Below, in pieces: positions 2,828-56,806 of a stretch of 64,000 nucleotides of DNA. Numbering within the stretch: position 1 is the first letter of the stretch; each line of letters starts with the position of its first letter. The position numbers and the translations under genes were made by a program. The notes beneath the pieces are model-generated. The model saw only the letters and a list, made by a program, of their open reading frames with translations. It did not search any database and was not told the origin of the DNA. Source of the DNA: Auraticoccus monumenti (lineage in GTDB: Bacteria > Actinomycetota > Actinomycetes > Propionibacteriales > Propionibacteriaceae); NCBI RefSeq assembly GCF_900101785.1, contig NZ_LT629688.1, forward strand, positions 4,278,001 to 4,342,000, given 5' to 3'.

Positions 2828-4206
2828 GCCGGACTCCTCGCCGGTTCGGGTGCGGGGACCACGTTGACGTTGTCTCGGAAGAGGTTGGTCGGGTCCAGCT
2901 CGGCCTTGAGGGCGCGCAGCCGGGCCAGGGTGGCCGGCGGGAACGCCTGGTGGACCCGGTCGGGGTCGGTGGAGCTGTCGAAGCTCAGGTAGCTCCCGGT
3001 CAGGTGCGGACGCAGGACGTCCCAGGAACGGTCCACCTCGGCGGCGCTCCTCCCCATCGCGCTGATGGAGAAGGCGGCGTCGCGGTGGGCGAAGGCCGTC
3101 GCCCCCGGGTCGACGTCGGCGATGGCACCGCCCATGCTGCGGAGCATGAAGAAGTGCACGCCGCCGTCGGCCAGCAGCCGGGCGCCGGCGTCGGCCACCT
3201 CGGGGGTGAGCCGGGTGACCAGCCCGGAGCGGGAGACGGGTTCACCGAGGCCCCGGTGCGGGGCGGCGGGGAACATCGTCATCAGCTCGGCGTAGGGCGT
3301 GATGACGACCTGCTGCTGGATCAGCGGGGCGATCGAGGCGAGGGGTTGCAGCTGCGACAGCACCACCTCGGGGTCGTCGGAGGCGACCACGGCCAGCACC
3401 TGCGCCACGCCCGATCCGTTCAGGATCAGGTTGGGCGTGGTCTGCCGCGGGGCCGCCTCGACGACCCGGCCGAAGTCGACCAGGAACCGCGCCGGGTCGT
3501 CGACCCGGAAGGCGAGCTGGGCCCAGCCCACGTCGGTGAGCTCGTCCACCACGAACTCGAAGGCGGTGACGACACCGAAGTTCGCACCGGCCCCGCGGAC
3601 GGCCCAGAACAGCTCGGGGTGCTCGGTCTCGTCGGCCCGCACCAGGGAGCCGTCGGCGAGCACCACCTCGACCGCCCGCAGGTGGTCGATGGTCAGCCCG
3701 TGCAGACGACCCAGGTAGCCGATGCCACCCGCGGTGGCCAGACCCCCGACGCCGACGCCGCCGTGGTCACCGGAGCCCAGCACCCACCCGTGGGGCTGCA
3801 GCGCCGCGGCCACGTCGCGCCACCGGGCCCCGGGGCCGATGCGGACCAGCCGCCGGGTCGGGTCCAGCACCTCGATCCGGTCCAGGGCGCCGACGTCGAT
3901 CACCAGCCCGCCGTCGTTGGTGGAGCGGCCGCTGATGCCGTGCCCACCGCTGCGGACCCCGAGCGGCAGGTGGCGGTGGCGGCGGGCGAAGGCCAGCGCG
4001 TCGACCACCTCGCCCGTCGTCTGAGGACGCAGCACCAGACCGGGGTGCCCGCCGCGCAGGTAGGTCGAGCGCGCGTCCCGGTAGCCCGGGTCCCCCGGCT
4101 CGACGGCCGTCGCGGCCAGCGACGTCGGGACGCCGTCGTAGTCGATGCCAGGACGCCGCCGGGCCCGCACGCGGTCGGGCCGCGGCGACGTCGGTTCAGG
4201 CGGCAT
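2824..4206 (-). CDS. FAD-binding oxidoreductase (berberine-bridge-enzyme type)
   Basis: FAD-linked oxidase of 460 residues. The PCMH FAD-binding domain (about 45-215) contains RSGGHGISG, whose His is the usual 8-alpha covalent FAD site, and GGVGVGGLATAGGIGYLGR. In bicovalent relatives this second segment carries a Cys, and here there is none, so at most one covalent link is expected. The C-terminal BBE motif is NLFRDNVNVVP. The ATG at 4206 overlaps the end of the azoreductase-like gene by 11 bases. Any longer reading frame upstream is a shadow of that gene. Substrate unknown; relatives oxidise sugars, alkaloids or other alcohols. Confidence 0.87.
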   Translation of the reverse strand: MPPEPTSPRPDRVRARRRPGIDYDGVPTSLAATAVEPGDPGYRDARSTYLRGGHPGLVLRPQTTGEVVDALAFARRHRHLPLGVRSGGHGISGRSTNDGGLVIDVGALDRIEVLDPTRRLVRIGPGARWRDVAAALQPHGWVLGSGDHGGVGVGGLATAGGIGYLGRLHGLTIDHLRAVEVVLADGSLVRADETEHPELFWAVRGAGANFGVVTAFEFVVDELTDVGWAQLAFRVDDPARFLVDFGRVVEAAPRQTTPNLILNGSGVAQVLAVVASDDPEVVLSQLQPLASIAPLIQQQVVITPYAELMTMFPAAPHRGLGEPVSRSGLVTRLTPEVADAGARLLADGGVHFFMLRSMGGAIADVDPGATAFAHRDAAFSISAMGRSAAEVDRSWDVLRPHLTGSYLSFDSSTDPDRVHQAFPPATLARLRALKAELDPTNLFRDNVNVVPAPEPARSPA

Positions 4207-4837
4207 GGCGGGCCGCCAGGGTCTCCCCCGCACGCGTCGCGTGCGCCTCGGCGTCACGGTGCATGTCCGCAGCCAGGTCGGTGAACTGGTCGAGCGCGGG
4301 GTTGACCCCGACGAGGGTGAACTCCCGCTCCACCACGGTGAGGTCGGCGCCCCAGCAGTCGGCCAGCACGCGGCGGAGGTAGTCGGTGTTGTGGTCCCAG
4401 CCCTCCCGCGGGGTGCCGGGACCGTAGGCGCCGCCACGGGTGGTGACCACCACGGTCGGCGTCCCCTCCAGCAGCCGGGCACCGAGCGGGGCACCGGCCA
4501 TGGCCAGGTCGATCCAGGCCTTCACGTGCTGGGACACACCGAAGTTGTACAACGGCAGGGCCAGCACCGCGCTGCTGGCCTGCTGGAGCTCGGTGGCGAG
4601 CTGCTCGGCGGTGGCCGTGGCCTCGCGCTGGTGCTCGCTGCGCTCGTCCTCGGGGGTGAAGCTGGCCGAGATGGCGGCGGCCCAGGCGTCGGCGGGGAGC
4701 GGGTCCTGGCCGAGGTGGCGCCGGACGACGGGGAAGCCGGGGTGGGTGGCGGTGAAGCGGTCGACGACGCCGTCGGCGAGGGCGCTGCTGGCAGAGCGGT
4801 CGCCCTGGATGCTGGCGTCGACACGGAGCAGGTACAC
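4196..4837 (-). CDS. FMN-dependent NADH-azoreductase-like flavodoxin-fold reductase
   Basis: Flavodoxin-fold NAD(P)H oxidoreductase of 213 residues, AzoR-like. PLYNFGVSQHVKAWIDLA matches the FMN-binding P-N-F/x-KxWID segment of azoreductases, and TTRGGAYGPGTP is the second FMN loop. Azoreductases of this kind reduce quinones or azo dyes by two-electron transfer. The GTG start at 4837 is chosen because GAGGAG lies five bases upstream. Longer frames run through the divergent MarR gene and are not real. It is the first gene of the operon, with its promoter inside the MarR operators, so control by quinone-like compounds is likely but unproven. Confidence 0.86.
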   Translation of the reverse strand: MYLLRVDASIQGDRSASSALADGVVDRFTATHPGFPVVRRHLGQDPLPADAWAAAISASFTPEDERSEHQREATATAEQLATELQQASSAVLALPLYNFGVSQHVKAWIDLAMAGAPLGARLLEGTPTVVVTTRGGAYGPGTPREGWDHNTDYLRRVLADCWGADLTVVEREFTLVGVNPALDQFTDLAADMHRDAEAHATRAGETLAARHAA

Positions 4838-10260: not shown

Positions 10261-11619
10261 TTAGGATCCGTGGGCGGCGAGCGCGTCCTCGGCCGCGTCG
10301 TGCCGGGCGCTGGCCTGGGCGGCGGAGCGCCAGCGGCGCTGGCTGAGCAGGGCGACGACGACGGCCAGCGCCAGCGCGGCCGACGCCCCGGCGTAGGACC
10401 AGTCCAGGCCGTGGAAGTCGATCAGCACACCGGCGAGGGCGGTGCCGGCCGCGGCCCCGGTGGTGTTGGCCGCGGAGAGGAAGGCCTGGGCCTCGTTCAA
10501 CCGGTCCGAGGGCGCCAGGTGGTCCACCAGGCTCTGCTGCATGATCAGCGTCGGGGCGATGGTGATGCCGGTGACGAAGAGCAGCGGCAGGACCAGCAGC
10601 AGACCCGGGTCGGGGGAACGCATCAGCAGCGCCATCGCGCCCAGGAGCAGCGAGAAGGCGGCCAGCAGCACCACGACGCCGTGCCGCTCCTGGAACTTCC
10701 AGGTGCCGGCGCCGTAGGCCAGGCCGCCGACGGTGCTGCCGCCGGCGATGGCGGCGAAGAACACGCCCACGTTGTCGGTGCTGCCCAGCAGCTGCCCGGC
10801 GGTGGCGGCCATCGAGGTGTCCAGCTGGCCGAACCCGATGCTCAGCATCAGCATCACGGTGAGCACGGTGGCCACACCACCGATCAGCACCACGGGGACC
10901 CGTCGGACCGGCGGCTGACCGTCCTCGGTGGTGGTGCTCGGGGAGAGCCCCCCGGACGACCGGGCGGCGGAGGTCCGGGAGTAGGCCAGCGACCCGCCGG
11001 CCAGCAGGGCGGCGGTGATGATCAGCGGCACCGCCGGCGGCGTGAGCACCAGCAGCAGGGAGAGCAGCAGCGGTCCGCCGACGAAGATCAGCTCGACGCT
11101 GGTGCCGTCGAGGGCGAAGGCCACCCGCCGCGAGGCCCGGTCGGGGAAGATCACCCGCCAGGCGGCCCGGATGGCGGGGCTCATCGGCGGGAAGCTCAGC
11201 CCGGCCAGCAGGGAGAGCCCGAGCAGGGCCGGGGAGGGGACGCCCAGCACGGTGGCCAGGGCGAGCGCCACCAGGGTCGCCGCACTGGTCAGGGAGGTGG
11301 GGACCAGGACCCGCGGCTGGCCGAAGCGGTCCATCAGACGCCCCCACAGCGGCATCCCGACCGCCGACCCGAGGGCGAACGCCCCGGTCACCAGACCGGC
11401 CAGGCTGTAGGCCCCGCGGTCGCGCTCGATCAGCAGCAGGATCCCCAGCGGGGCCATGGCGATGGGCAGCCGGGCCAGGAACGCCGCCAGGAACGGGCGG
11501 GCCGCCGGGCCGTGGCGCAGCAGCCGCAGGTAGGCCTGCACCCCGGTCCCCAGACCACCTTCGAGACCCATCGGCTCGCCCGTCACCTGCTGCTCCGTCC
11601 GCACCACCGGCCCGAACAC
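10261..11619 (-). CDS. MFS transporter
   Basis: Major facilitator superfamily transporter of up to 452 residues with about 12 hydrophobic helices. The loop between helices 2 and 3 contains GMPLWGRLMDRFGQPRVLVP, the MFS motif A, and the central loop around STTTEDGQPPVRRVP separates the halves. Sequence style is that of sugar or drug efflux permeases, with no substrate clue. The start is uncertain: GTG 11619 gives a 16-residue polar extension, while ATG 11571 (MGLEGGLGTG) fits homologue lengths equally well. It forms a two-gene unit with the following hypothetical gene. Confidence 0.87.
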   Translation of the reverse strand: MFGPVVRTEQQVTGEPMGLEGGLGTGVQAYLRLLRHGPAARPFLAAFLARLPIAMAPLGILLLIERDRGAYSLAGLVTGAFALGSAVGMPLWGRLMDRFGQPRVLVPTSLTSAATLVALALATVLGVPSPALLGLSLLAGLSFPPMSPAIRAAWRVIFPDRASRRVAFALDGTSVELIFVGGPLLLSLLLVLTPPAVPLIITAALLAGGSLAYSRTSAARSSGGLSPSTTTEDGQPPVRRVPVVLIGGVATVLTVMLMLSIGFGQLDTSMAATAGQLLGSTDNVGVFFAAIAGGSTVGGLAYGAGTWKFQERHGVVVLLAAFSLLLGAMALLMRSPDPGLLLVLPLLFVTGITIAPTLIMQQSLVDHLAPSDRLNEAQAFLSAANTTGAAAGTALAGVLIDFHGLDWSYAGASAALALAVVVALLSQRRWRSAAQASARHDAAEDALAAHGS

Positions 11620-11690
11620 TGAATCGTTCGAGCAACCTGGACGACGCTACCCGAGGGAGGCCGTGTTCCTCCAGCCGCCGGCGGCCGGGC

Positions 11691-12692
11691 TCAGTCCCCG
11701 GCGGGCCCGGGCCCGGAGGTGGCGACGGAGAGGCGGGTCACCGCCGCCTCGTCCAGCGGGGACCCGGCGAGCCGGGCGGCGTGCACGGCGGCCCCCAGGA
11801 CGGGGCTCAGCAGCGGCGTGACCAGCGTCGTGGTGGGGTGCGCGGCGAGCACCTGGCGGGAGAAGGAGCGCTGCAGCAGCGGGGCACCGAAGGTCCCTCC
11901 GGACCAGGAGACGGCCACCGCCTCGTCCTCGGCGAACCCGAGCCGTCGCCGGACCACCGCCACCAGCGCGGCCAGCTCGACGCCGGCCTGCTCCAGCACC
12001 GCGGCAGCGGCACGGTCACCGGCCTCGGCCGCCTGACCCACCTGGCGGGCCAGCCCGGCGACGCGGGCCCGGTCCCCGCCCCACCGGTTCACCACCAGGT
12101 CGACCAGGTCCAGGTCCGCGGTCAGCCCCAGGTGCTCGCGCAGCACGTCCAGCAGCGGTCCCGGTTCGATCAGACCGTCCACCATCCGGCTGAACAGCTG
12201 CAGCCCGCGCACGGCGACCCAGTAGGCCGAGCCCTCGTCGGAGAACACCTCGCTCCAGCCGCCGGCCCGCACGCCGACCCCCTCCCGCTCGCCGTAGGCG
12301 ACCGAGCCGGTGCCGCTGACCACGTTCACGCCGTCGCGCCCGCCCAGCGACCCCGCCCAGCCGCAGACCATGTCGTTGCCGCAGACGTAGCGGGAGTGCC
12401 CCAGGGCCGCCGCGGGGGCGGCGTCGAGGGCGGCGACGTCGGCGCTCGCCTCCCCGTACCCCGGCAGACCGACGAAGGCGGCGGTGACGTCGGCGGGGGC
12501 GCGCCCGGCCCGCCGGCACACCTCCGCCACGGCGGGCCCCAGCACCTCACCGACCAGCTGCACGCCCCTGGCGAAGTAGTAGGTGCTGGGGGCACGGTGC
12601 TCGGCCAGCAGCCGCCCGCCCCGGTCGACCAGGCAGAGGGCGGTCTTGGTGCCGCCGCCGTCCACGCCCAGGTACATCTCGTCGCCCGTCAC
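11691..12692 (-). CDS. BadF/BadG-type ATPase, N-acetylglucosamine-kinase-like
   Basis: Actin-like (ASKHA) kinase of 333 residues. The phosphate-1 loop is MYLGVDGGGTKTALCLVD, the central region has VVSGTGSVAYGE, and a third glycine-rich segment AVSWSGGTFGAPLL binds adenosine. This pattern matches BadF/BadG/BcrA/BcrD family members close to N-acetylglucosamine kinases, which phosphorylate amino sugars. The start may be GTG 12692 or the ATG five codons later. Monocistronic and divergent from the VOC gene. The sugar specificity is inferred from family resemblance only. Confidence 0.82.
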   Translation of the reverse strand: MTGDEMYLGVDGGGTKTALCLVDRGGRLLAEHRAPSTYYFARGVQLVGEVLGPAVAEVCRRAGRAPADVTAAFVGLPGYGEASADVAALDAAPAAALGHSRYVCGNDMVCGWAGSLGGRDGVNVVSGTGSVAYGEREGVGVRAGGWSEVFSDEGSAYWVAVRGLQLFSRMVDGLIEPGPLLDVLREHLGLTADLDLVDLVVNRWGGDRARVAGLARQVGQAAEAGDRAAAAVLEQAGVELAALVAVVRRRLGFAEDEAVAVSWSGGTFGAPLLQRSFSRQVLAAHPTTTLVTPLLSPVLGAAVHAARLAGSPLDEAAVTRLSVATSGPGPAGD

Positions 12693-12751
12693 GAGGACCC
12701 ACCCTCTCCCGGGGACCGGGGGGCCGTCGAGCCCGGTGGCAGGCTGGAGCC

Positions 12752-13189
12752 ATGACCGCGACCTGGGGCCTCACCGTGGACTGCTCCTCGCCCGGGCGGC
12801 TGGCCGCCTTCTGGGCCGAGGCGCTGGGCTACCGGGAGGCACCCCCGCCGGAGGGGTTCGCCAGCCGGCGGGAGTGGCTGGTCGCCCTGGAGGTGCCCGA
12901 GGAGGAGTGGGACGACGGCGCCTACCTCGTCGACCCCGAGGGCCGCTCCCCCGGGTTGTCCTTCCTGCGCGTGCCCGAGGCGAGGGTGGACAAGAACCGT
13001 CTCCACCTGGACCTGCAGGTCAGCGGCGGGCGCGCGGTCCCGGCCCCGACCCGCGCCGAGCGGATCGAGGCCACCCGGGCCCGGCTGGAGGTGGCCGGCG
13101 CCACCGTGCTGGCCCGCCACGAGCAGGGCGGCCGGCTCGACCACCTGGTGCTGGCCGACCCCGAGGGCAACGAGTTCTGCGTGGTCTGA
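12752..13189 (+). CDS. VOC-family (glyoxalase-like) protein
   Basis: Small protein of 145 residues with two beta-alpha-beta-beta-beta units. WGLTVDCSSPGRLAAFWAEALGY opens the first unit and LDHLVLADPEGNEFCVV closes the second, the form of glyoxalase-like domains common in actinobacteria. The C-terminal Glu before FCV is the usual metal ligand position. Such proteins may act as dioxygenases, glyoxalases or binding proteins, and no substrate can be named. It is convergent with the MBL gene, only 11 bases apart. Confidence 0.85.
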   Translation: MTATWGLTVDCSSPGRLAAFWAEALGYREAPPPEGFASRREWLVALEVPEEEWDDGAYLVDPEGRSPGLSFLRVPEARVDKNRLHLDLQVSGGRAVPAPTRAERIEATRARLEVAGATVLARHEQGGRLDHLVLADPEGNEFCVV

Positions 13190-47299: not shown

Positions 47300-47373
47300 G
47301 CGGGTGTAGCTCAATGGTAGAGCCCCAGTCTTCCAAACTGGATATGCCGGTTCGATCCCGGTCACCCGCTCCA
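47300..47373 (+). tRNA. tRNA-Gly (anticodon TCC)
   Basis: Acceptor GCGGGTG pairs with CACCCGC. The anticodon stem CCAGT/ACTGG closes loop CTTCCAA, giving anticodon TCC for glycine. The T arm has GGTTCGATCCC. The discriminator is T and CCA is encoded (47371-47373). Confidence 0.95.
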
Positions 47374-47389
47374 GCGCCCCAGCCGGGGT

Positions 47390-48556
47390 TCAGTCCGACT
47401 CCGCAGAGCCTGCCGTGACGATGTCGTGGCTGGCCGCCCACTCCCCCAGGTCGTGCCGCTGGATCGCCGCCGCCATCAGGTCGGGGAAGACGTCGGGGGT
47501 GCAGGCGAAGGCGGGGACGCCGAGGGCGGTCAGCGCCTGGGCGTGCTCGGCGTCGTAGTAGGGGGCGCCCTCGTCGCTCAGGGCCAGCAGCGCCACCATC
47601 ACCGCGCCGGAGTCGTGCACCTGGCGGGCCCGGCGCAGCATCTCCTCCGCGATCCCGCCCTCCAGCAGGTCGCTGAGCAGCACCAGCACCGTCTCCTCCG
47701 GCTGCTCGATCAGGGTCTGGCAGTAGGCCAGCGCCCGGTTGATGTCGGTGCCGCCGCCGAGTTGGATGCCGAACAGCACGTCGACGGGGTCGTCGAGCTC
47801 GTCGGTCAGGTCGACCACCTCGGTGTCGAACACCACCAACGACGTCCGCACCGAGCGCAGCGAGGCCAGCACCGCCCCGAACACGCCGGACCAGACGATC
47901 GAGCTGGCCATCGACCCGGACTGGTCGATGCACAGGATGATGTGGCGCTCGACCTGGCTGCGGCGGCGGGCGTGCCCGACCAGCCGCTCGGGGACCACGG
48001 TCTGGTGCTCGGGCAGCCAGTGCTTGAGGTTGGCTGCGACGGTCCGGCCCCAGTCGATGTCGGCCGGCCGGGGTCGTGACGTCCGGCGCACCCGGTCCAG
48101 CGCGCCGCTGACCGCCTGCACCAGCTCCGCGGCCAGCCGGGCCTGCAGCTCGTCCGTCACGGTCCGCACCACCTGGCGGGCCGCCTCCTTCGAGGACTCC
48201 GGGATCGCCCCGCGCAGCCCCATCAGCGTGGTCACCAGGTTGATGTCGGGCTGCACCGAGGCCAGCGTCTCGGGCTCGGTGAGCAGCTGGTGCAACCCCA
48301 GCCGGTCCATCGCGTCGGCCTGCATCACCTGCACCACCCGGGTCGGGAAGTGGCTGCGGATGTCCCCCAGCCAACGGGCCACCGAGGGCGCGGACGCCCC
48401 CAGCCCGCCACGTCCCCGGCGCTCGCCGTCGTAGAGCTGACTCAGCGCCCGGTCGCGGACCAGGTCGTCGCCCTCCAGCTCGGCCCCGGTGCCGTCAGCG
48501 GACTCCCCGCCCAGCACCAGCCGCCAGCGACGCACCCGGTCGTCCTCCTCGCTCAC
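47390..48556 (-). CDS. VWA-domain protein of the MoxR/DUF5682 cluster
   Basis: Protein of 388 residues with a von Willebrand A domain in its second half. The metal-ion site is ILCIDQSGSMASSIV (DxSxS, about 205-218), with the threonine in LGGGTDINRALAYC and the last Asp in VLVLLSDLLEGG. The N-terminal half (SALxxLY-type region with LGASAPSVARWLGDIRSHFP) is helical and unrecognised. VWA/MoxR pairs act with AAA+ ATPases on protein complexes or metal cofactors (RavA-ViaA, CbbQ-CbbO). The GTG start overlaps the DUF5682 stop (GTGA). It is the last gene of the cluster, 16 bases from tRNA-Gly. Confidence 0.88.
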   Translation of the reverse strand: MSEEDDRVRRWRLVLGGESADGTGAELEGDDLVRDRALSQLYDGERRGRGGLGASAPSVARWLGDIRSHFPTRVVQVMQADAMDRLGLHQLLTEPETLASVQPDINLVTTLMGLRGAIPESSKEAARQVVRTVTDELQARLAAELVQAVSGALDRVRRTSRPRPADIDWGRTVAANLKHWLPEHQTVVPERLVGHARRRSQVERHIILCIDQSGSMASSIVWSGVFGAVLASLRSVRTSLVVFDTEVVDLTDELDDPVDVLFGIQLGGGTDINRALAYCQTLIEQPEETVLVLLSDLLEGGIAEEMLRRARQVHDSGAVMVALLALSDEGAPYYDAEHAQALTALGVPAFACTPDVFPDLMAAAIQRHDLGEWAASHDIVTAGSAESD

Positions 48557-50940
48557 GCGCTCCCCCTCCCGCTGAGACCCATCAGCCGGGCCAGTGCCCG
48601 GACGGCCGGGTCCGCCCGGACCGCGTCGATCGTCTCCGCCTCCACCTCGGGCCCGTCCTGGGTGGTCAGCTGCTGGCCGATGGTCCGCCGCTCGGCGGGG
48701 GCGAAGTCGGCGAAGGTGCGGCGCAGCAGCGGCAGCAGCGCGTCGAAGGTGTTTGCACCCACCTCGGCCAGCCAGCCGTCGACCAGCCGCAGCAGCGTCG
48801 GCTCGTGGACCAGCAGCAGCGCGTCCCCGGCCAGCAGCCCGTCGAGGAAGCCGGCCGCCGACACCGGGTCCGCACCGGTCGACAGCCGCCGCGACAACCG
48901 CCGGGCCACCTCCTCGGCGGGCAGCCCGCCGGCGTCCAGCAGCATCCGGTTGGCCCGGCCTCCCACCGAGCCGTGCAGGGCGTCGTCGGCGGCCACCTGC
49001 TGCAGGGCCTGCCGCCAGGGGCCGGAGAGCTTCTCGTCGTCGAGCAGCGCGATGCCGTCGTGGGCGGACTCGATCGCGGTCCGCATCCGCGCCGCCGCGT
49101 CGTCGTCCAGGGAGCTGCAGGCCGCCCGGAGCCCGACGCTGGCCCGTCGCACCACGGTCAGCAGCACCTCCCCGACCCGGCCGGTGTCGACGGCGCGGAC
49201 GTCCCCGTAGCGGCGGGTGCGGGCCATCGGCGCCACCGACGTCAGCAGGGCCAGCACGTCGCTGCCGTGCGCGGCCTGCTCGTCCACCCGGGCCACCACG
49301 GTCTGCAGCGCCTCACCGAGCTCGGCCAGCAGGCAGCGCTCGATCAGCACCGCCAGCTCGCCCAGCCCGTCGGCCTCGCGGGCCAGCTCGGCCAGCCGGC
49401 CGGCGGCGGCATCCTCCACGGTGGTGCCGTGCAGCCCGGCCTCGACCAGCGTCACCGACAGCTCCGGCCGCCACCGCAGCGACCACACCTCCTTGAAGGT
49501 GCCGAGCGTGCCGCCCGTCTCCAGCGGGGTCGCCCAGTCCACGTCCAGCGCGCGCAGCCGGTGGAACAGCACCGAGCGGGCCCGGCCGGCCTCGCGCCGC
49601 AGGTCCAGCTCGACGACCTTCTCCTCCGCCGACACCTTCAGCCGCAACGACCGCTGCTGGCGGGCCAGGTCCTCCGCGACCGGGGCCATCGGGGTTCCCT
49701 CGGGCACCTGGCCGAGCTGGTGGCCCACCACCAGCCGGTCGGCGACCAGCCGCAGCGGCACCGGCGAGCCCTCGCAGAGCACGGCCTGGGTCGCCTCGAG
49801 CAGCTCCTCCAGGCCCACCGACGGACGTCCGCGGACCACGGCCAGCGTCTCGGCCAGCCTGGTCGCCTCCAGCACCGAGGCCGGTGAGGCGTCGAGGTTC
49901 TCCTCGCGCAGCGCCCGGGCGGTCCGCACCAGCCAGCTGGTGCTGGCCAGGTCCGCACCCTCCCCGGACGGCCCGCTCTGCCAGTGCTCGAAGAGGTGCT
50001 GGTACCAGCCCGGGGAGGTGACGCCGGCGCCGTAGCCGCTGGCCCGGCTGAGCCGCCCCGTCGTCCAGGGCACCCAGGTGGCGGCCACCTTCACCTTGGC
50101 CAGCTTGGTCAGCAGCCGGTTGTCGGCGGCGGCGGGACGTCCGGTCGGGTCGACGGCGGGCGCGTGGTAGGCCCCGCAGACGAAGGCGATCCGGGTGTGC
50201 CCGGCCTTCCAGCCGGCCCGCACCGCCTGGCGCATCGCCGCCTCGCGTCGGGCGTTGGTCAGGGTCCAGGCGTCGGTGTCCGGGCCGACGGCCGGAGCCA
50301 CCGGGTCGCGTCCCTCCCGGACGGCGGCCATGGCCTCGGCGACGGTGGCGAAGCGCTGCAGCGAGGACGTCGAGCGGTGCTCCACCGCGTCCTCCCACCA
50401 GCGCTCGGGGTCGTCGTAGCCGGCGGCGGCGGCCAGCTCGGCGAGGGCGTCGATCCGCTCCCGGGTGGCGGGTCTCCGCTCCGGCGACCGCGGGTCGCTG
50501 CTCTCGTCGTCGCCCTCCTCCGCGTCCTCGTCGTCACCGTCGCCCAGCAGGCTGTCGAGGTCGCGTTCGAGGGCCAGCACGTGGGTCGCGGCCAGGTCGG
50601 CGTGCCGGGCCGGGACACCCCGCGCCAGCGCCCAGCGGAGCGCGACCCACTCCGGGGAGAAGGAGGCCAGCGGGTAGAACAGCGCCCGGCCCGGCTCGTC
50701 GACGGCGTGCACCAGCCCGGCCACCGGGGGCTCCATCCCCTCCTCGCCCAGCAGCGGCAGCACCGCGTCCAGCTCCGGGACGCCCTCGACCAGCACCAGG
50801 TCCGGCTGCAGCTCCTCCAGCGCCAGCAGCACCGAGCGCGCCGAGCCGGGGCCGTGGTGGCGGATGCCGAGCACCGTGACCGACGGCCCGACCGGGGGCT
50901 CCGGCGGCGCGGTCGAGGGGTCGTCGACGAGCTGGGTCAC
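48553..50940 (-). CDS. DUF5682-family protein
   Basis: Large protein of 795 residues. The N-terminal part (about 20-270) contains VLGIRHHGPGSARSV (His28-His29), VLVEGVPELDAVL (Glu52) and, around residue 255, IAFVCGAYHAPAV. I think a GxxH-like motif, an E and a second GxxH-like motif in this order recall the TraB/TIKI/erythromycin-esterase superfamily of metal-dependent hydrolases. This is an inference, not a database result. The rest is helical with no known motif. It lies one base after the MoxR gene and overlaps the VWA gene. Function unknown. Confidence 0.82.
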   Translation of the reverse strand: MTQLVDDPSTAPPEPPVGPSVTVLGIRHHGPGSARSVLLALEELQPDLVLVEGVPELDAVLPLLGEEGMEPPVAGLVHAVDEPGRALFYPLASFSPEWVALRWALARGVPARHADLAATHVLALERDLDSLLGDGDDEDAEEGDDESSDPRSPERRPATRERIDALAELAAAAGYDDPERWWEDAVEHRSTSSLQRFATVAEAMAAVREGRDPVAPAVGPDTDAWTLTNARREAAMRQAVRAGWKAGHTRIAFVCGAYHAPAVDPTGRPAAADNRLLTKLAKVKVAATWVPWTTGRLSRASGYGAGVTSPGWYQHLFEHWQSGPSGEGADLASTSWLVRTARALREENLDASPASVLEATRLAETLAVVRGRPSVGLEELLEATQAVLCEGSPVPLRLVADRLVVGHQLGQVPEGTPMAPVAEDLARQQRSLRLKVSAEEKVVELDLRREAGRARSVLFHRLRALDVDWATPLETGGTLGTFKEVWSLRWRPELSVTLVEAGLHGTTVEDAAAGRLAELAREADGLGELAVLIERCLLAELGEALQTVVARVDEQAAHGSDVLALLTSVAPMARTRRYGDVRAVDTGRVGEVLLTVVRRASVGLRAACSSLDDDAAARMRTAIESAHDGIALLDDEKLSGPWRQALQQVAADDALHGSVGGRANRMLLDAGGLPAEEVARRLSRRLSTGADPVSAAGFLDGLLAGDALLLVHEPTLLRLVDGWLAEVGANTFDALLPLLRRTFADFAPAERRTIGQQLTTQDGPEVEAETIDAVRADPAVRALARLMGLSGRGSA

Positions 50941-50941
50941 G

Positions 50942-52045
50942 TCAGCCCAGCTCGCGGCAGGCCCGGTAGAGGTCGGCCCACTCCCGGCGGTCCTTGACCA
51001 CGGTCTCCAGGTACTCCTGCCACACCACGCGGTCCTGCACCGGGTCCTTGACCACGGCCCCGACCAGGCCGGCGGCGACGTCGGCGGCGCTGACCCGGCC
51101 GTCGCCGAAGTGGGCGGCCAGGGACACCCCGTTGGTCATCACCGAGATCGCCTCGGCGGTGGACAGGGTCGCGCTCGGGGACTTCACGGTGGTCCGCCCG
51201 TCCACGGTGACGCCGCCGCGCAGCTCGCGGAACACCGTCACCACCCGCTCGATCTCTGCCAGCTCCTCCAGCTCGACCGGCAGCTCCAGCGAGCGGCCCA
51301 GCTGTCGCACCCGCTGCCCGACGATGCGGACCTCGTCGGCCAGGGAGTCCGGGAGCGGCAGCACCACGGTGTTGAAGCGCCGCCTGAGCGCGGAGGAGAG
51401 GTCGTTGACCCCCTTGTCGCGGTTGTTGGCGGTGGCGATGACGTTGAACCCGCGGACCGCCTGCACCTCGGTGTCCAGCTCGGGCACCGGCAGCGTCTTC
51501 TCCGACAGGATCGAGATCAGCGCGTCCTGCACCTCCGCGGGGATCCGGGTCAGCTCCTCGATCCGCACCAGCGCCCCGCTCTCCATCGCCCGCATCACCG
51601 GGCTAGGCACCAGCGCGGCCCGGCTCGGACCCTCGGCCAGCAGCCGGGCGTAGTTCCAGCCGTAGCGCAGCGACTCCTCCGGCGTCCCGGCCGTCCCCTG
51701 CACCACGAGGGTGGAGACGCCGGAGATGGCGGCCGACAGGTGCTCCGAGACCCAGCTCTTGGCGGTGCCCGGCACCCCGAGCAGCAGCAGCGCCCGGTCC
51801 GTGGCCAGCGAGGCCACGGCGATCTCGATCAGCCGTCGGGAGCCCACGTACTTGGGCGTGATCTCGGTGCCGTCGGGCAGCGTCCCGCCCATCAGGTAGG
51901 TGGTGACCGCCCACGGCGAGAGCCGCCAGCTCGGCGGGCGCGGACGGTCGTCGGAGGCGGCGAGGGCGGCCAGCTCGGCGGCGTGCTCCTGCTCGGCGTG
52001 CGGGCGGACGGCCTCCTGCGCGGCGGCAGGGGTGTCGGTGGTCAT
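50942..52045 (-). CDS. MoxR-family AAA+ ATPase
   Basis: AAA+ ATPase of 367 residues. Walker A is GVPGTAKSW (about 90-98, K96). The Walker B strand is ALVRIEELTR, with two Glu (163-164) instead of the common Asp-Glu. Sensor 1 is VIATANNRD (Asn207-208) and the arginine segment is SSALRRRFNTVVLPLP. The N-terminal 40 residues are charged. MoxR ATPases remodel target proteins together with VWA partners. The ATG shares ATGA with the DUF5691 stop, and the VWA protein is encoded two genes downstream. Whether the acidic Walker B change affects hydrolysis is an open question. Confidence 0.9.
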   Translation of the reverse strand: MTTDTPAAAQEAVRPHAEQEHAAELAALAASDDRPRPPSWRLSPWAVTTYLMGGTLPDGTEITPKYVGSRRLIEIAVASLATDRALLLLGVPGTAKSWVSEHLSAAISGVSTLVVQGTAGTPEESLRYGWNYARLLAEGPSRAALVPSPVMRAMESGALVRIEELTRIPAEVQDALISILSEKTLPVPELDTEVQAVRGFNVIATANNRDKGVNDLSSALRRRFNTVVLPLPDSLADEVRIVGQRVRQLGRSLELPVELEELAEIERVVTVFRELRGGVTVDGRTTVKSPSATLSTAEAISVMTNGVSLAAHFGDGRVSAADVAAGLVGAVVKDPVQDRVVWQEYLETVVKDRREWADLYRACRELG

Positions 52046-53550
52046 CGGAACGCCTCTCGGATCGACTGGCTGACGGACAGGTGCTGACGGATCTGGCCCA
52101 CGGCCCGCCGGGCGTCCTCGGGCACCCGGGCGTCCTCGAGGACGTCCAGGGCCTCGGGGTGCAGGCGGCTGGCGAGCAGCTGGACGGGGACGCGGGACAG
52201 CCCGGTGCCCTCGTCGAGGAGCAGCGTGGCGACCCGTCGGCTGAACCCGGCGCTCCAGGGGCCGGGCACCTTCGGCAGCAGCGCCTCCGCAGCCACCGCC
52301 CGGCCGAGCGGGGTCCGCTGCACCGGGGCATCCAGCTGGCGGAGGGCGTGTGCCTCCCGCTGCTCGGCGGGGCCGAGGTCCAGCCACTCCACCGGCGGAG
52401 ACTCCAGCTCCGGCCACAGCGCGCCGGCCCAGGCGGGGTCGCGCTGCTGGCTGACCGCGGTCACCAGCCCCCGGCGCAGGGCCTCGTCGGGGACGGCCTG
52501 CCAGACCTGCGCCGGGCCGGCACCGACCAGCGAGGTCCACCAGGTCAGCGGGGCGGCGGCGGCCAGCTGGGTCAGCCAGTGGTCGGTCCGCGACCCCTCG
52601 TCGGGCTCGTCCAGACCGTCGCGCTGGGCGGCCTGGTCCGGCGCCTCAGGACGCTCGACCTGCAGCCGGACGCCGCCCCGCCCGAGCAGCCGGCCCAGAC
52701 CGCTGCGTCGCTGCACGGTGACCAGGGCGGCCAGCCGCCCGGCCATCCGCTGGGCGCGGGGGGACGTCGGCAACCGGTCCAGCACGGCCAGCGCGGCGCG
52801 GCGCACGCCGACCGCGCTGTCGTCGAGCGCCTCCTCCAGGAGGTCGATGGCCGCCGGGTGCGGCCGTTGGCCGAGCACGGTCAGCAGGGCGGCCCGCTCC
52901 CGGGCCCGGTCGGTGGCCCAGCTGCTGCGGACCAGCCGCACCGCCGCGGCGGGGTCGTGACGGGCCACCTCGGCCAGCACCCGCTCCCGGGTCGCGGCCG
53001 GGGTCCGGGCCCACTCGTGCTCGTCCGGCACCTGGTGCACGGGTGCCTCGTCGGTCGCCGGAGGCAGACGCCACTCCTCGCGCAGCCCGACCAGCCAGCG
53101 CAGCCGGGCGGACCGCAGCCGGGCCAGGTCCTCGCGCAGACCGACGTCGCGGATGCCGCGGTCGAGCAGGGCCGGCAGCCGGGACGGCTCGGGCACCCGG
53201 TCGGCGTCCGCGCAGCAGGTGACCCAGAGCCTCAGCAGCGGACGCACCATCGTCGGGGGCACCGGTGGCTGGTGCAGCAGCAGCCCGAGCAGCTGGTCCG
53301 CGGCGGGCGGGGCGGTCGGGAGGTGCTCGGCCGGCGCGGGCTCCCGCAGGTCCTCCTGCGTCCGGGGCCGGTGCCCCGCCCGCCGGGCGACCTGCCACAG
53401 CGCCGCGTCGTCCAGCAGCCCCTGCTCCGCCGGGACGTCGGGCTGCGACGGCCACGCCGCGGGCGACTCGGGCGGTGGGCGCCGCGAGGTGCCGACCAGG
53501 GCCGCCGAGAGCAGGGCGGGCTCCCACCCGGGGAGCGGGTCCGCGCTCAC
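52042..53550 (-). CDS. DUF5691-family protein
   Basis: Protein of 502 residues without catalytic motifs. It starts with a short region SADPLPGWEPALLSAALVGTSRR and continues as an alpha-helical array with many Leu and Arg. Helix pairs such as HPAAIDLLEEALDDSAVGVRRAALAVLDRLP look like HEAT-like repeats (about 250-285). The C-terminus (SRLHPEALDVLEDARVPEDARRAVGQIRQHLS) continues this style. It is the second gene of the SWIM-DUF5691-MoxR-DUF5682-VWA operon, coupled on both sides by four-base overlaps. A scaffold role is a guess. Confidence 0.82.
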   Translation of the reverse strand: MSADPLPGWEPALLSAALVGTSRRPPPESPAAWPSQPDVPAEQGLLDDAALWQVARRAGHRPRTQEDLREPAPAEHLPTAPPAADQLLGLLLHQPPVPPTMVRPLLRLWVTCCADADRVPEPSRLPALLDRGIRDVGLREDLARLRSARLRWLVGLREEWRLPPATDEAPVHQVPDEHEWARTPAATRERVLAEVARHDPAAAVRLVRSSWATDRARERAALLTVLGQRPHPAAIDLLEEALDDSAVGVRRAALAVLDRLPTSPRAQRMAGRLAALVTVQRRSGLGRLLGRGGVRLQVERPEAPDQAAQRDGLDEPDEGSRTDHWLTQLAAAAPLTWWTSLVGAGPAQVWQAVPDEALRRGLVTAVSQQRDPAWAGALWPELESPPVEWLDLGPAEQREAHALRQLDAPVQRTPLGRAVAAEALLPKVPGPWSAGFSRRVATLLLDEGTGLSRVPVQLLASRLHPEALDVLEDARVPEDARRAVGQIRQHLSVSQSIREAFR

Positions 53551-54884
53551 ACCACCACCACCTGACCGGCGGGGACCCCGGCGACCGGGTCGGCGGCGGT
53601 CACGGTCAGCGGCCGCACGGCCCCCTCCACCAGCTCGACGACGAGGTCGACCGGGTGCCCGCCGGTGAGGGCCGCCAGCGTCCACACGTCGGCGTCGGCG
53701 ACCACGGGCAGGGCGTCGCCGCGGGCGTCCACCAGCAGGCTCGGACGTCCGGGCTGCCACCGCACCCCGGCCAGGTGGGCGGCACTCACCCGCAGCCACG
53801 GCTGGTGGACCAGCAGCGCGGCCCGCTGCTCCAGCGCCTTCGCGACCCCTCCCGGCGTCGGCCAGGGCACCGGCTGGTCGGCCGGTCGCGGCTCGTCGAG
53901 GAACAGCGCCCGCTGCGGCGCGTGGCCGGGGTAGCGGGCGAGGGCGGCGTGCAGCGAGCTGCCCGAGACCTGGGCCAGCGGGAGCGCGGTGGCGCCGGCG
54001 GCGAAGTCGAGCACCTGGACGGTGAGCCCGCTGCGGCGTCCGTGCAGCCAGGTCCGCTGCTGCTGCACCCGGCCGTCGTCGGAGCGGGAGGCGCCGAGCA
54101 CCAGCCAGTCGTCGGTCACCGGCTCACCGCCGCGGACGTCCTCACGGGCCAGGTTCCAGCCGACGACCACCCGCAGGTCGGCCAGCTCGTCCTCGTCCAG
54201 CTCGGTCCGTCGCCGCCAGGTGCGCACCACCGCCCAGAGCCGGCCCAGCGTCGCGAGCAGGTGCTCGGCCCAGTCCGGGCGGGCGCTGACCTCGGAGCCC
54301 AGGTCGCGGAGCTGCTGGCCGAGCCCGGGCAGCTGGGCGTCGACCATCCGCGCCCCCGCCTGGTCCCACCAGCTGGTCGGACGGCTGCGGGCCGCGGCGA
54401 GCCCGCCGCGGACCAGGTCGGTGAGCCACAGCGCCAGCTCCTCCACGCCGGCGTCCATCAGCTCCAGCCGCCTGGCCAGCCGGGCGGCCTGGGCGGCGGG
54501 GTCGGGGGCCCTGGTCGGGGTCTCGGCGACCGGGTCCCGGGCGCTGCGCCGCGCCGACCACTCCGCGGCGTACCCGGCCACGTCGGTGCCTGCCTCCAGC
54601 GCCCCGCCCGGTTCGAGGGCGCCGTCGGACCAGAGCAGCAGCAGGGCGAGGGCGTGCTTGCAGGGGAACTTGCGGCTCGGGCAGGAGCAGCGCCAGGCGG
54701 GGGCGGTCAGGTCGACGCTCACCTGGTACGGGGTGCGGCCCGAACCCTGGCACTGGCCCCAGAGCAGGATGTCGGTGGCCCCGCAGGCCGACCACGGACC
54801 CGGCCGGGCGAGCTTGCGCGCGGCGGCCATCGAACCGGCGTCCGTCGCAGCCGCCTCCACCTGGGACCTGCTCCACCGGGCCAC
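53547..54884 (-). CDS. SWIM zinc-finger family protein
   Basis: Protein of 445 residues and first gene of the five-gene cluster. The SWIM finger WRCSCPSRKFPCKH has the ligands Cys66, Cys68, Cys75 and His77 (CxC-x6-CxH). The N-terminal region (TDILLWGQCQGSGRTPYQVSVDL) leads directly into it. The rest, about 350 residues, is beta-rich with no family match I can name. SWIM fingers bind DNA or proteins in helicase and recombination factors, and this one may recruit the complex to a substrate. The GTG at 54884 lies 7 bases after TAGGCT, so the transcript is probably leaderless. Confidence 0.86.
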   Translation of the reverse strand: MARWSRSQVEAAATDAGSMAAARKLARPGPWSACGATDILLWGQCQGSGRTPYQVSVDLTAPAWRCSCPSRKFPCKHALALLLLWSDGALEPGGALEAGTDVAGYAAEWSARRSARDPVAETPTRAPDPAAQAARLARRLELMDAGVEELALWLTDLVRGGLAAARSRPTSWWDQAGARMVDAQLPGLGQQLRDLGSEVSARPDWAEHLLATLGRLWAVVRTWRRRTELDEDELADLRVVVGWNLAREDVRGGEPVTDDWLVLGASRSDDGRVQQQRTWLHGRRSGLTVQVLDFAAGATALPLAQVSGSSLHAALARYPGHAPQRALFLDEPRPADQPVPWPTPGGVAKALEQRAALLVHQPWLRVSAAHLAGVRWQPGRPSLLVDARGDALPVVADADVWTLAALTGGHPVDLVVELVEGAVRPLTVTAADPVAGVPAGQVVVV

Positions 54885-54890
54885 GGCCGG

Positions 54891-54896
54891 AGCCTA
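54891..54896 (-). promoter_or_regulatory. Likely -10 box of the SWIM-MoxR-VWA cluster
   Basis: TAGGCT on the minus strand ends 7 bases before the GTG start of the first gene (54884), the spacing expected for a leaderless transcript. No clear -35 box is visible. No other promoter candidate was seen inside the cluster, whose junctions overlap or are one base apart. Confidence 0.5.
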
Positions 54897-54943
54897 TGTG
54901 GTCGCGGTACCGGAGGACGGGAGCGCCCGAGGTGACGACCGCC

Positions 54944-55399
54944 TCAGCCGGCCGCGGCCGCGGGCCCCGCCCGCTCGATCAGGTCCTTCAGCACGGTGTT
55001 CAGCCCGGCCAGCTGGTCGGCGTCGAGACCGAGCCGGGCCATCATCGCGGGCGGGATGGCCAGCGCCTCGTCGCGCAGCGCCCTCCCCCGGTCCGTCAGC
55101 ACCAGACGCAGCGCGCGGTCGTCGTCGGGATCGCGGTCGCGGACCAGGTAGCCGAGGGACTCCAGCCGCTTCACCATCGGGGAGAGGGTGGCGGGCTCCT
55201 GCTGGACCAGGGCGCTCAGTCCGCCGAGGGTCAGCGGACCGTGCTGCCAGAGCGCGAGCATCACGAGGTACTGCGGGTGGGTCAGACCCAGCGGCTCCAG
55301 CACCGGTCGGTACAGCCCGATCACCCGCCGCGAGGCGACCGCCAACGCGAAGCACACCTGCGCCTCGAGGGCCAGCAGGTCGGTCTCGTCCTCGGCCAC
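54944..55399 (-). CDS. MarR-family regulator, OhrR-like
   Basis: Winged-helix repressor of 151 residues. Near the N-terminus EAQVCFALAVASRRVIGLYRPVLEPLGL aligns with the start of OhrR proteins, whose first Cys is the peroxide sensor; the corresponding Cys here is at about residue 16. HPQYLVMLALWQHGPLT and PATLSPMVKRLESLGYLVRDRDPDDDRALRL form the recognition helix and wing. It is divergent from the 62-aa protein, with an inverted repeat in between. It could respond to organic hydroperoxides, but no ohr gene is present here. Confidence 0.88.
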   Translation of the reverse strand: MAEDETDLLALEAQVCFALAVASRRVIGLYRPVLEPLGLTHPQYLVMLALWQHGPLTLGGLSALVQQEPATLSPMVKRLESLGYLVRDRDPDDDRALRLVLTDRGRALRDEALAIPPAMMARLGLDADQLAGLNTVLKDLIERAGPAAAAG

Positions 55400-55442
55400 G
55401 TCGTCCTCCCGGTCGTTCTGGTGGTGGTGCGGGTTAGACTAC

Positions 55443-55466
55443 TTCGTACACGAACAGTTCGTGCAC
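55443..55466. promoter_or_regulatory. Operator-like inverted repeats of the OhrR-like regulator
   Basis: GTACACGAA (55446-55454) and TTCGTGCAC (55458-55466) match in 8 of 9 positions around CAG, and TTCGT-AC-ACGAA (55443-55454) is a second, overlapping palindrome. They lie between the two divergent starts (55399 and 55485), where a MarR-type dimer would repress both. Confidence 0.65.
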
Positions 55467-55484
55467 ACAACTCCGGGAGTCGTC

Positions 55485-55673
55485 GTGACCGAGGTGCCCC
55501 GCAAGGACCGGTTCTCCCTGTTCTTCAGGCTGGACCACCACATCACCTACAACCTGCTGCGGATCATGGGTCCGGCCGCGATGGACCCCGGGCGGGACCC
55601 CCGGGCGCAGATGAAGAAGGAGTACGAGCGCCGCAAGGCCCTGCACGAGCAGCGTCGCGCCGCCGAGGGCTGA
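55485..55673 (+). CDS. 62-aa protein, probably controlled by the OhrR-like regulator
   Basis: Short basic protein (MTEVPRKDRFSLFFRLDHH...) with no known domain. A central part ITYNLLRIMGPAAMDPGRDP is followed by a highly charged helix, AQMKKEYERRKALHEQRRAAEG, which may bind nucleic acid or a partner protein. GTG 55485 is supported by GGGAG a few bases upstream, and the operator sits directly upstream. The frame and codon use look real. No function can be inferred from sequence, but it is the only obvious target on the plus strand of the regulator's operator. Confidence 0.6.
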   Translation: MTEVPRKDRFSLFFRLDHHITYNLLRIMGPAAMDPGRDPRAQMKKEYERRKALHEQRRAAEG

Positions 55674-55763
55674 GCGGCACCACCTGGTCCCACCAGATCC
55701 GTCCGGACGGTCGCGACGGCGTCGACCCTTGTGCCGGGTCCCGCCTCGGTCCACGCTGATGGC

Positions 55764-56261
55764 ATGAGCAGATGGAGGGTCGCCGTGGAGGCCGCCCACG
55801 TCACCACTCTCGCTGCCGTGGTGGGAGTCGTCGCCCTCGACCCGTTCAGCCGGATGCGCAGCGCCACCGACTTCCCTGGCTGGCTCACCGGTCAGCAGCG
55901 GTTGGACCGGGTGATGTCACGTGCCGCGCCGCCTCTCTTCCTGTCGGCTACAGCGACGGCTGCCGGGGCAGCACTGGTCGCGCTCGGCCGGCACGACGTC
56001 CCACTGGCGACAGGTCGTGCGCTCGCGGCAGCCTGCGTCGCAGCAGCCGTCGCGGTCACGCTCGTCGTCAACGAGCCGATGAACACACGTCTGCGGGCCT
56101 GGGACCCCGACGACGCACCCCCCGCGGACTGGCGTGCGGTCCGGGAGCAGTGGGATCGGGGCCACCGTCGGAGGCGAGCTCTGCTGGCGGCTGCCGCCGT
56201 CGCCTCCGGGTGGGGGACGGTCCGCTCACGGACGGACTCCCGGAGCCTCCCGCACCGTTGA
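55764..56261 (+). CDS. DUF1772-like membrane protein
   Basis: Integral membrane protein of 165 residues with about four hydrophobic segments: RVAVEAAHVTTLAAVVGVVAL, PLFLSATATAAGAALVALG, LAAACVAAAVAVTLVVN and RRRALLAAAAVASGW. NEPMNTRLRAWDP, the aqueous loop, and the following DWRAVREQWDRGHRRR match the DUF1772 pattern. ATG 55764 is preferred over an upstream frame start. By eye the codon use looks slightly less GC-biased than the neighbours, a possible sign of transfer. Family members have no assigned activity. Confidence 0.75.
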   Translation: MSRWRVAVEAAHVTTLAAVVGVVALDPFSRMRSATDFPGWLTGQQRLDRVMSRAAPPLFLSATATAAGAALVALGRHDVPLATGRALAAACVAAAVAVTLVVNEPMNTRLRAWDPDDAPPADWRAVREQWDRGHRRRRALLAAAAVASGWGTVRSRTDSRSLPHR

Positions 56262-56398
56262 ACGTGCCCCGGGCTGAGGCGCTCGTCGCAGCTCCGACGG
56301 GCGCGCTGCACCTCCTCGGCGGTCGGTGTGTCCGCTCCAGGGCGGTGAAGTGCCCGGGGCCCGAGCAGGCTGGTGGCCCACGTCGCCGGGCCGGTCGT

Positions 56399-56806
56399 TC
56401 AGCCGAGCACGGCCAGGGCGTCGATCTCCACCAGCATCTCCTCGCGCGGGAGGCCGACGAAGACGGTGGTGCGGCAGGGCAGCACGCCCGAGGGGCAGTG
56501 CTCGGCCAGGAACGCGCCGTAGGCCTCGTTCATGGCCGCGAAGTGGTCCCGCTCGGTGAGGTAGACCCGCAGCGACAGGACGTCCTCGACGTCGGCCCCG
56601 CCCGCCAGCAGCACGGCCCGCACGTTCTGCAGGGTGCGGGTGGTCTGCGCGGCCACGTCACCGGGGAACAGGTACTCCCCCGTCTCCGGGTCCTGCGGTC
56701 CCTGGCCCGAGACCTGCAGCAGGTTCCCCTTCACCACCCCCTGGGAGAAGGTGAAGGCCGGGGCCGGGGCGTCGTCGGTGCGCAGCGCGCGCTTGGGGGT
56801 GCTCAT
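56399..56806 (-). CDS. RidA-family imine/enamine deaminase
   Basis: RidA/YjgF/Rid7-like protein of 135 residues, hydrolysing reactive enamines or imines formed by PLP enzymes. QVSGQGPQDPETGEYLFPGDVAAQTTRTLQNVRAVLLAGG is the recognisable first half. The second half contains CRTTVFVGLP followed by EIDALAVLG. The canonical RidA catalytic Arg region (here CRTTV) is present. The D-amino-acid operon on the opposite strand nearby, which includes a PLP enzyme, gives a possible source of imines. Confidence 0.9.
   Translation of the reverse strand: MSTPKRALRTDDAPAPAFTFSQGVVKGNLLQVSGQGPQDPETGEYLFPGDVAAQTTRTLQNVRAVLLAGGADVEDVLSLRVYLTERDHFAAMNEAYGAFLAEHCPSGVLPCRTTVFVGLPREEMLVEIDALAVLG

Follow-up and report, generated by a model that had tools for sequence, protein, structure and literature searches.

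A conserved five-gene cluster built on a MoxR–DUF5682–VWA triad with a predicted TIKI-fold component

Five adjacent genes of Auraticoccus monumenti, encoding SWIM zinc-finger, DUF5691, MoxR ATPase, DUF5682 and VWA proteins, form one functional unit, a conclusion supported by their co-occurrence, conserved order and fusions. Within this unit, MoxR–DUF5682–VWA is a triad that stays constant across four locus types while its partners are exchanged (SWIM plus DUF5691, or DUF4132 plus YehQ), and sequence comparison identifies it as orthologous to yehL-yehM-yehP of Escherichia coli. The DNA analysed, here called the window, is a 64,000-nucleotide stretch of contig NZ_LT629688.1. An initial annotation, made from the letters of the window, had described five minus-strand genes at 54884–47390; their order and junctions match the open reading frame list exactly, and the family names it gave (SWIM, DUF5691, MoxR, DUF5682 and VWA) all lie above Pfam cut-offs. 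The features, in window coordinates unless stated otherwise, are as follows.

54891..54896, minus strand: TAGGCT, candidate -10 element for a leaderless promoter, without statistical significance
53547..54884, minus strand: SWIM zinc-finger protein, 445 aa, CxCx6CxH at residues 66-77; Pfam SWIM 4.8e-8
52042..53550, minus strand: DUF5691 protein, 502 aa, HEAT-like repeats; Pfam DUF5691 8.6e-82
50942..52045, minus strand: MoxR AAA+ ATPase, YehL type, 367 aa, P-loop GVPGTAKS, Walker B Glu-Glu; Pfam AAA_5 5.8e-38
48553..50940, minus strand: DUF5682 protein, 795 aa; Pfam DUF5682 5.5e-235
DUF5682 protein, predicted domains: N-terminal TIKI/EreA/ChaN fold, residues ~18-325; C-terminal helical repeat, ~500-762
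47390..48556, minus strand: VWA_CoxE protein, 388 aa, MIDAS DQSGS / GGGTD / SD; Pfam VWA_CoxE 5.5e-53
47300..47373, plus strand: tRNA-Gly (TCC), left-hand boundary of the segment missing from a same-genus genome (G001)
56399..56806, minus strand: RidA-like gene, bounding the G001 empty site on the right
4200-4806 of locus L104 (G001): empty site, matching window 47373-56399

Three junctions overlap by 4 bases each (GTGA at 53550-53547, ATGA at 52045-52042 and GTGA at 48556-48553), and a single base, 50941, separates MoxR from DUF5682. Outside its finger the SWIM protein matches no known family. A MarR-type regulator and the RidA-like gene lie upstream of the cluster; downstream, on the opposite strand, are tRNA-Gly, tRNA-Pro and then tig and the clpP pair. 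The TAGGCT box that the initial annotation placed ahead of the cluster does precede the first GTG, at a distance of 6 bases. As evidence for a promoter we reject it, because TANNNT at such spacing is no commoner than chance in the window: TANNNT-N6-RTG occurs 5 times against 3.0 expected, and 19 of 100 shuffles reach 5.

Searching 85,000 species genomes for matches to a DUF5682 alignment yielded 80 loci, which are the closest matches and hence biased toward the query. They come from at least nine phyla (Actinomycetota, Cyanobacteriota, Chloroflexota, Pseudomonadota, Planctomycetota, Verrucomicrobiota, Acidobacteriota, Armatimonadota and Bacteroidota). Rare co-occurrence of the five families had been named beforehand as the observation that would speak against the grouping; instead, the full set is present at 57 of the 60 relatives' loci with sufficient flank. 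The five genes are collinear in 45 of these 60, SWIM-DUF5691 diverges from MoxR-DUF5682-VWA in 12, mostly of streptomycete type, and some or all partners are non-adjacent in 3. Adjacency of the triad is stricter still, holding at 68 of 71 loci with sufficient flank. The same five genes recur jointly in at least nine phyla, so chance does not explain their arrangement. Four genomes with unlinked copies were tested; all of them have MoxR elsewhere or nearby, and three have DUF5691. Two cyanobacterial loci (L033, L038) have DUF5682 separate from its usual partners, a third (L030) is cut by a contig end, and SWIM and DUF5691 are non-adjacent in an Armatimonadetes genome (L056).

A separately drawn sample of 198 Actinomycetota genomes, checked for DUF5682 and DUF5691 over the cut-off, gave a consistent picture. 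About one in ten (17/198) encodes DUF5682, and all 16 with DUF5691 also have DUF5682, the two sharing a contig and lying at most roughly 5-10 kb apart (hypergeometric P=1.2e-22, a value that ignores kinship). Gene fusions join the same neighbors: SWIM to DUF5691 in two phyla, represented by Phytohabitans and Symbioplanes (L053, L068) and a Hymenobacter plasmid (L117), and DUF5682 to VWA at six loci (L072, L092, L095, L100, L101 and L120) of Streptomyces chryseus and the streptomycete paralogue type. Apart from streptomycete synteny, no further neighbor family recurs across phyla among the loci. Co-occurrence, order and fusions thus agree with the earlier view of the five genes as one unit.

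The cluster also moves as a unit. In G001 the order clpP-tig-tRNA-Pro-tRNA-Gly-RidA is preserved with only ~0.6 kb from tRNA-Gly to RidA and the cluster absent, and the same genome holds the whole cluster on another contig (L112) at 53-91% identity. Presence within the window's family is patchy, and plasmid-borne copies exist. Integration at tRNA-Gly was considered and rejected: the tRNA 3' end is directly repeated over no more than 9 bases, and no integrase was seen beside the cluster. A complete yeh-type locus lies on the mobilizable 77-kb plasmid pl1 of Iodobacter fluviatilis (L119), where it adjoins a type I restriction-modification system.

The initial annotation mentioned no E. coli counterpart, and this it missed. 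In K-12, yehL (MoxR), yehM (DUF5682), yehP (VWA) and yehQ (SWIM) stand in a row after yehI (DUF4132). The window MoxR aligns with YehL over its full length (40% over 360 aa, E=3e-77), above other MoxR proteins; VWA aligns with YehP, also over the full length (38%, E=3e-77), and DUF5682 with YehM (27%, E=1e-25). Snider and Houry reportedly recognized seven MoxR subfamilies in 2006. YehL is the name of one of seven (PMC3893208), and by sequence the window MoxR belongs to it; the VWA and DUF5682 genes that characterize YehL neighborhoods stand alongside. DNA of yehM is present in 5,284 of 5,426 complete E. coli genomes (97%). In strain HNSQ2209 (NZ_CP137737.1, 1867916-1871259) an IS5-family transposase interrupts yehM, a natural knock-out. 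The literature found gives no function for yehL, yehM, yehP or yehQ; it lists yehQ in a butanol-tolerance set and yehM as a copper-evolved mutation.

Besides the window type, the triad occurs in a yeh type, (WGR-)DUF4132 with MoxR-DUF5682-VWA and a YehQ-like protein (L093, L096, L097, L098), and in two streptomycete types. One of these combines DUF4132, a ~1,700-aa protein, MoxR and a fused DUF5682-VWA (L092, L095, L100, L101); at L092 (1475-6523 and 12103-13485) we observed a conserved 1,683-aa protein without a Pfam family, a short DUF4132 protein and the DUF5682-VWA fusion. The other is VWA-MoxR with a divergent DUF5682 (L094, L099), accompanied by two more conserved genes without a Pfam family (L099 13715-15130 and 15103-15684). 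In both the window and the yeh type, one partner carries a SWIM finger and another is large and probably helical. Profile comparison by hhalign detected no relation of SWIM to YehQ, or of DUF5691 to DUF4132 or YehQ, and the partner modules therefore look like replacements rather than orthologues.

The initial annotation had called DUF5682 hydrolase-like, which structural modeling and conserved residues bear out at the level of prediction. A full-length model (pLDDT 87.4, pTM 0.83) compared with the PDB by Foldseek returned just helical-repeat noise, and the N-terminal domain was folded alone instead (pLDDT 84.5). Residues ~500-762 match HEAT-like solenoids, with Z values common for helical repeats. 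For the N-terminal domain, the ten best chains by VIA-align (Z 6.2-9.8) were three of Tetrahymena complex IV, whose subunit was counted apart from TIKI-superfamily proteins, together with ChaN (Z 8.9, rmsd 4.3, 154 aligned), HopBA1 (7.5), BcR136 (6.9), EreC (6.9, rmsd 5.4, 169 aligned, and 6.2) and BcR135 (6.7 and 6.6). The first unrelated row scored 5.8 and the next 4.7. Z values of 7-9 are moderate, and Foldseek found no PDB match for the domain at E<=0.001, nor did a DUF5682 profile search against PDB sequences find one. Weak Pfam matches point the same way (TraB/PrgY/gumN 0.016, ChaN 0.055). We conclude that the DUF5682 N-terminal domain is predicted to adopt the TIKI/EreA/ChaN hydrolase fold.

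Ten residues are invariant in 19 DUF5682 proteins from all four locus types: H28, H29, E52, E97, D115, R232, E233, M236, G256 and H259. By sequence and secondary structure, H28 is placed after strand 1, E52 after strand 2 and H259 after the strand following the Arg-bearing helix, which matches the His-Glu-His plus Arg layout of the TIKI active site (PMC6254334). Together, fold and active-site-like residues suggest that DUF5682 may hydrolyze a substrate. Not every TIKI-fold protein is a peptidase; ChaN is not, and neither is PMT (PMC6254334).

Motif conservation supports the proposal that MoxR and VWA form a remodeling pair. All 75 MoxR proteins compared retain the GxPGTAK P-loop with its Lys, sensor 1 and the arginine finger, and the VWA proteins keep the MIDAS elements DxSxS (74/75), T loop (72/75) and D (71/75). 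Throughout this MoxR clade (75/75) Walker B reads Glu-Glu, never Asp-Glu; ATPase activity is accordingly a prediction, and Glu in place of Asp counts against the explanation we favor. The SWIM finger, CxCxnCxH, is present in 64 of 68 proteins and invariant in an 18-sequence alignment.

The explanation we favor, to which we give somewhat less than an even chance, is that an ATP-driven MoxR-VWA remodeler operates a TIKI-fold hydrolase, DUF5682, while the SWIM and HEAT proteins choose the target. In NorQ-NorD, a finger of the VWA protein sits as a plug in the MoxR ring, the client is bound at the MIDAS, and ring action twists a linker (PMC9976466, PMC13036017). The proposed assignment of motor, hydrolase and selector follows from this analogy and from the fusions that place VWA by DUF5682 and SWIM by DUF5691. 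MoxR would form an ATP-driven AAA+ ring, and VWA, as in NorQ-NorD, would use its MIDAS site to link that ring to the client. DUF5682 would be the third core subunit, its TIKI/EreA-fold hydrolase head, probably a peptidase, mounted on a helical-repeat scaffold. MoxR-VWA may then control the DUF5682 active site or access of substrate to it, remodeling either DUF5682 or a bound substrate. SWIM and DUF5691 would act jointly as an exchangeable target-recognition module, the part taken by DUF4132 and YehQ in yeh-type loci. Formation of a complex by the cluster proteins, the ring and MIDAS mechanism taken over by analogy, and the recognition role of SWIM and DUF5691 are all predictions of this scheme. 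A narrower version, that the cluster encodes a new class of bacterial AAA+ protease in which DUF5682 serves as a TIKI-family peptidase that is fed or gated by a MoxR ring with its VWA adaptor and has swappable SWIM-plus-helical-repeat target selectors, we consider unlikely.

The chief rival holds that MoxR-VWA is a dedicated metal-insertion or maturation chaperone, with DUF5682 a client enzyme that works alone once metallated and SWIM and DUF5691 as aids to assembly or localization. The CoxE family takes part in CO-dehydrogenase maturation, and the window VWA is CoxE-type at 180 bits. Moreover, MoxR-VWA pairs insert metals, NorQD serving NO reductase (PMC9976466, PMC13036017), TIKI is metal-dependent (PMC6254334), and the DUF5682-VWA fusions show proximity. 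However, a lasting fusion of enzyme and chaperone in several lineages suits a stable subunit better, two more large partners are nearly always present, and a metal site in DUF5682 is hypothetical; on balance we regard maturation as a doubtful account of the cluster. A role as nucleic-acid maintenance or DNA-damage machine, in which MoxR-VWA-DUF5682 would be recruited to damaged DNA or DNA-bound protein by SWIM fingers, joined in yeh-type loci by WGR-DUF4132, strikes us as very improbable. SWIM and WGR domains are commonly tied to nucleic-acid binding, and yeh-type loci carry WGR, but the five window genes include no nuclease, ligase or helicase. Deinococcus DUF4132/WGR proteins are induced on DdrO depletion (PMC8533742), although that report concerns genes other than the window cluster.

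More evidence bears on the idea that the cluster serves in conflict or against phages. It would then be a fifth kind of MoxR-vWA ternary system, whose effector peptidase, DUF5682, stays inactive until SWIM/HEAT sensors detect an invader. The four kinds described are VMAP, iSTAND, FtsH and beta-propeller, and the window MoxR shares the GXXXTAKS P-loop of the last two (PMC7159879) and matches the bpMoxR model weakly (E=1.4e-5, below cut-off). Patchy presence and movement as a unit would fit, as would the plasmid copies, one beside a type I restriction-modification system and others beside toxin-antitoxin genes, an Imm26 gene and IS elements. Against this, PADLOC scored DUF5691 alone above noise (2e-6, to a generic model for HEAT repeats), and the surroundings of chromosomal copies showed no defence-gene enrichment, with 9 PADLOC-type families near 14 copies versus 11 in control regions of the same genomes, a count over 14 genomes by a proxy gene caller that a small effect could escape. 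A protein in the flank of one DUF5682 locus matches PADLOC SWIM_XIII (8e-189) and is distinct from the cluster's own SWIM protein. A variable effector is absent, no other family recurring across phyla, and there is no sign of phage arms-race copies: among 50,697 phage records a single one, the 14-kb 'Bacteriophage sp.' record MT835988.1 from human faeces, has an unannotated DUF5682 match (10638-12755, 27.6% identity, 93% cover) and is possibly a misfiled bacterial fragment. Because the E. coli counterpart is near-core and chromosomal flanks lack defence enrichment, we lean away from fast-turnover defence, judge a conflict role improbable and suggest a maintenance role instead. The initial annotation, which saw nothing to decide between stress, repair and conflict, was too pessimistic on this point.

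The families and the YehL subfamily are already known by name. In a literature search that reached a minority of subscription journals, no paper found names DUF5682 or DUF5691, and none treats the triad as a MoxR-VWA ternary system of its own, reports a TIKI fold for its third component or describes the exchange of partner modules. The core triad is found in ~97% of complete E. coli (by yehM DNA) and in at least nine phyla. With a predicted fold, candidate catalytic residues and fixed partners now assigned to DUF5682, the five-gene mystery becomes testable through YehM in K-12. If the scheme is true, a TIKI-type enzyme joins the machines run by MoxR-VWA.

Comparison with known systems sets the cluster apart from each while placing its parts. 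Like RavA-ViaA and NorQ-NorD, it has an ATPase-VWA pair as its likely mechanical core, yet it adds DUF5682, SWIM and DUF5691 as constant partners. RavA-ViaA, which the initial annotation cited, is not the closest pair, YehL/YehP being much nearer: the window MoxR (367 aa versus 498 aa) lacks the C-terminal extension of RavA and gives no BLAST match to it at E<=0.01, and the VWA protein matches ViaA only at E=4e-4. The yeh operon shares the MoxR-DUF5682-VWA order and a SWIM-finger protein, but has DUF4132 (yehI) where the window has DUF5691, differs in gene order, and encodes a YehQ whose detectable relation to the window SWIM protein is confined to the finger. MoxR-vWA ternary systems resemble the cluster in combining MoxR, vWA and a large third component, and their FtsH and beta-propeller kinds in the P-loop. 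In contrast, the third component here is DUF5682, none of the four kinds; the five genes of the window type are constant, with no hypervariable effector module; MIDAS residues are intact; and chromosomal copies are not surrounded by enriched defence genes. DUF5682 itself resembles the TIKI/TraB/EreA/ChaN superfamily in its predicted fold and in having His28, Glu52, His259 and Arg232 in the expected places. In the RRSP 2His/2Glu set an extra Glu lies two residues before the first His, a position that is Ile26 in DUF5682, a difference that counts against the scheme we favor. Unlike other members of the superfamily, the predicted DUF5682 head is joined to a helical-repeat scaffold, and its gene moves together with those of a MoxR-VWA pair.
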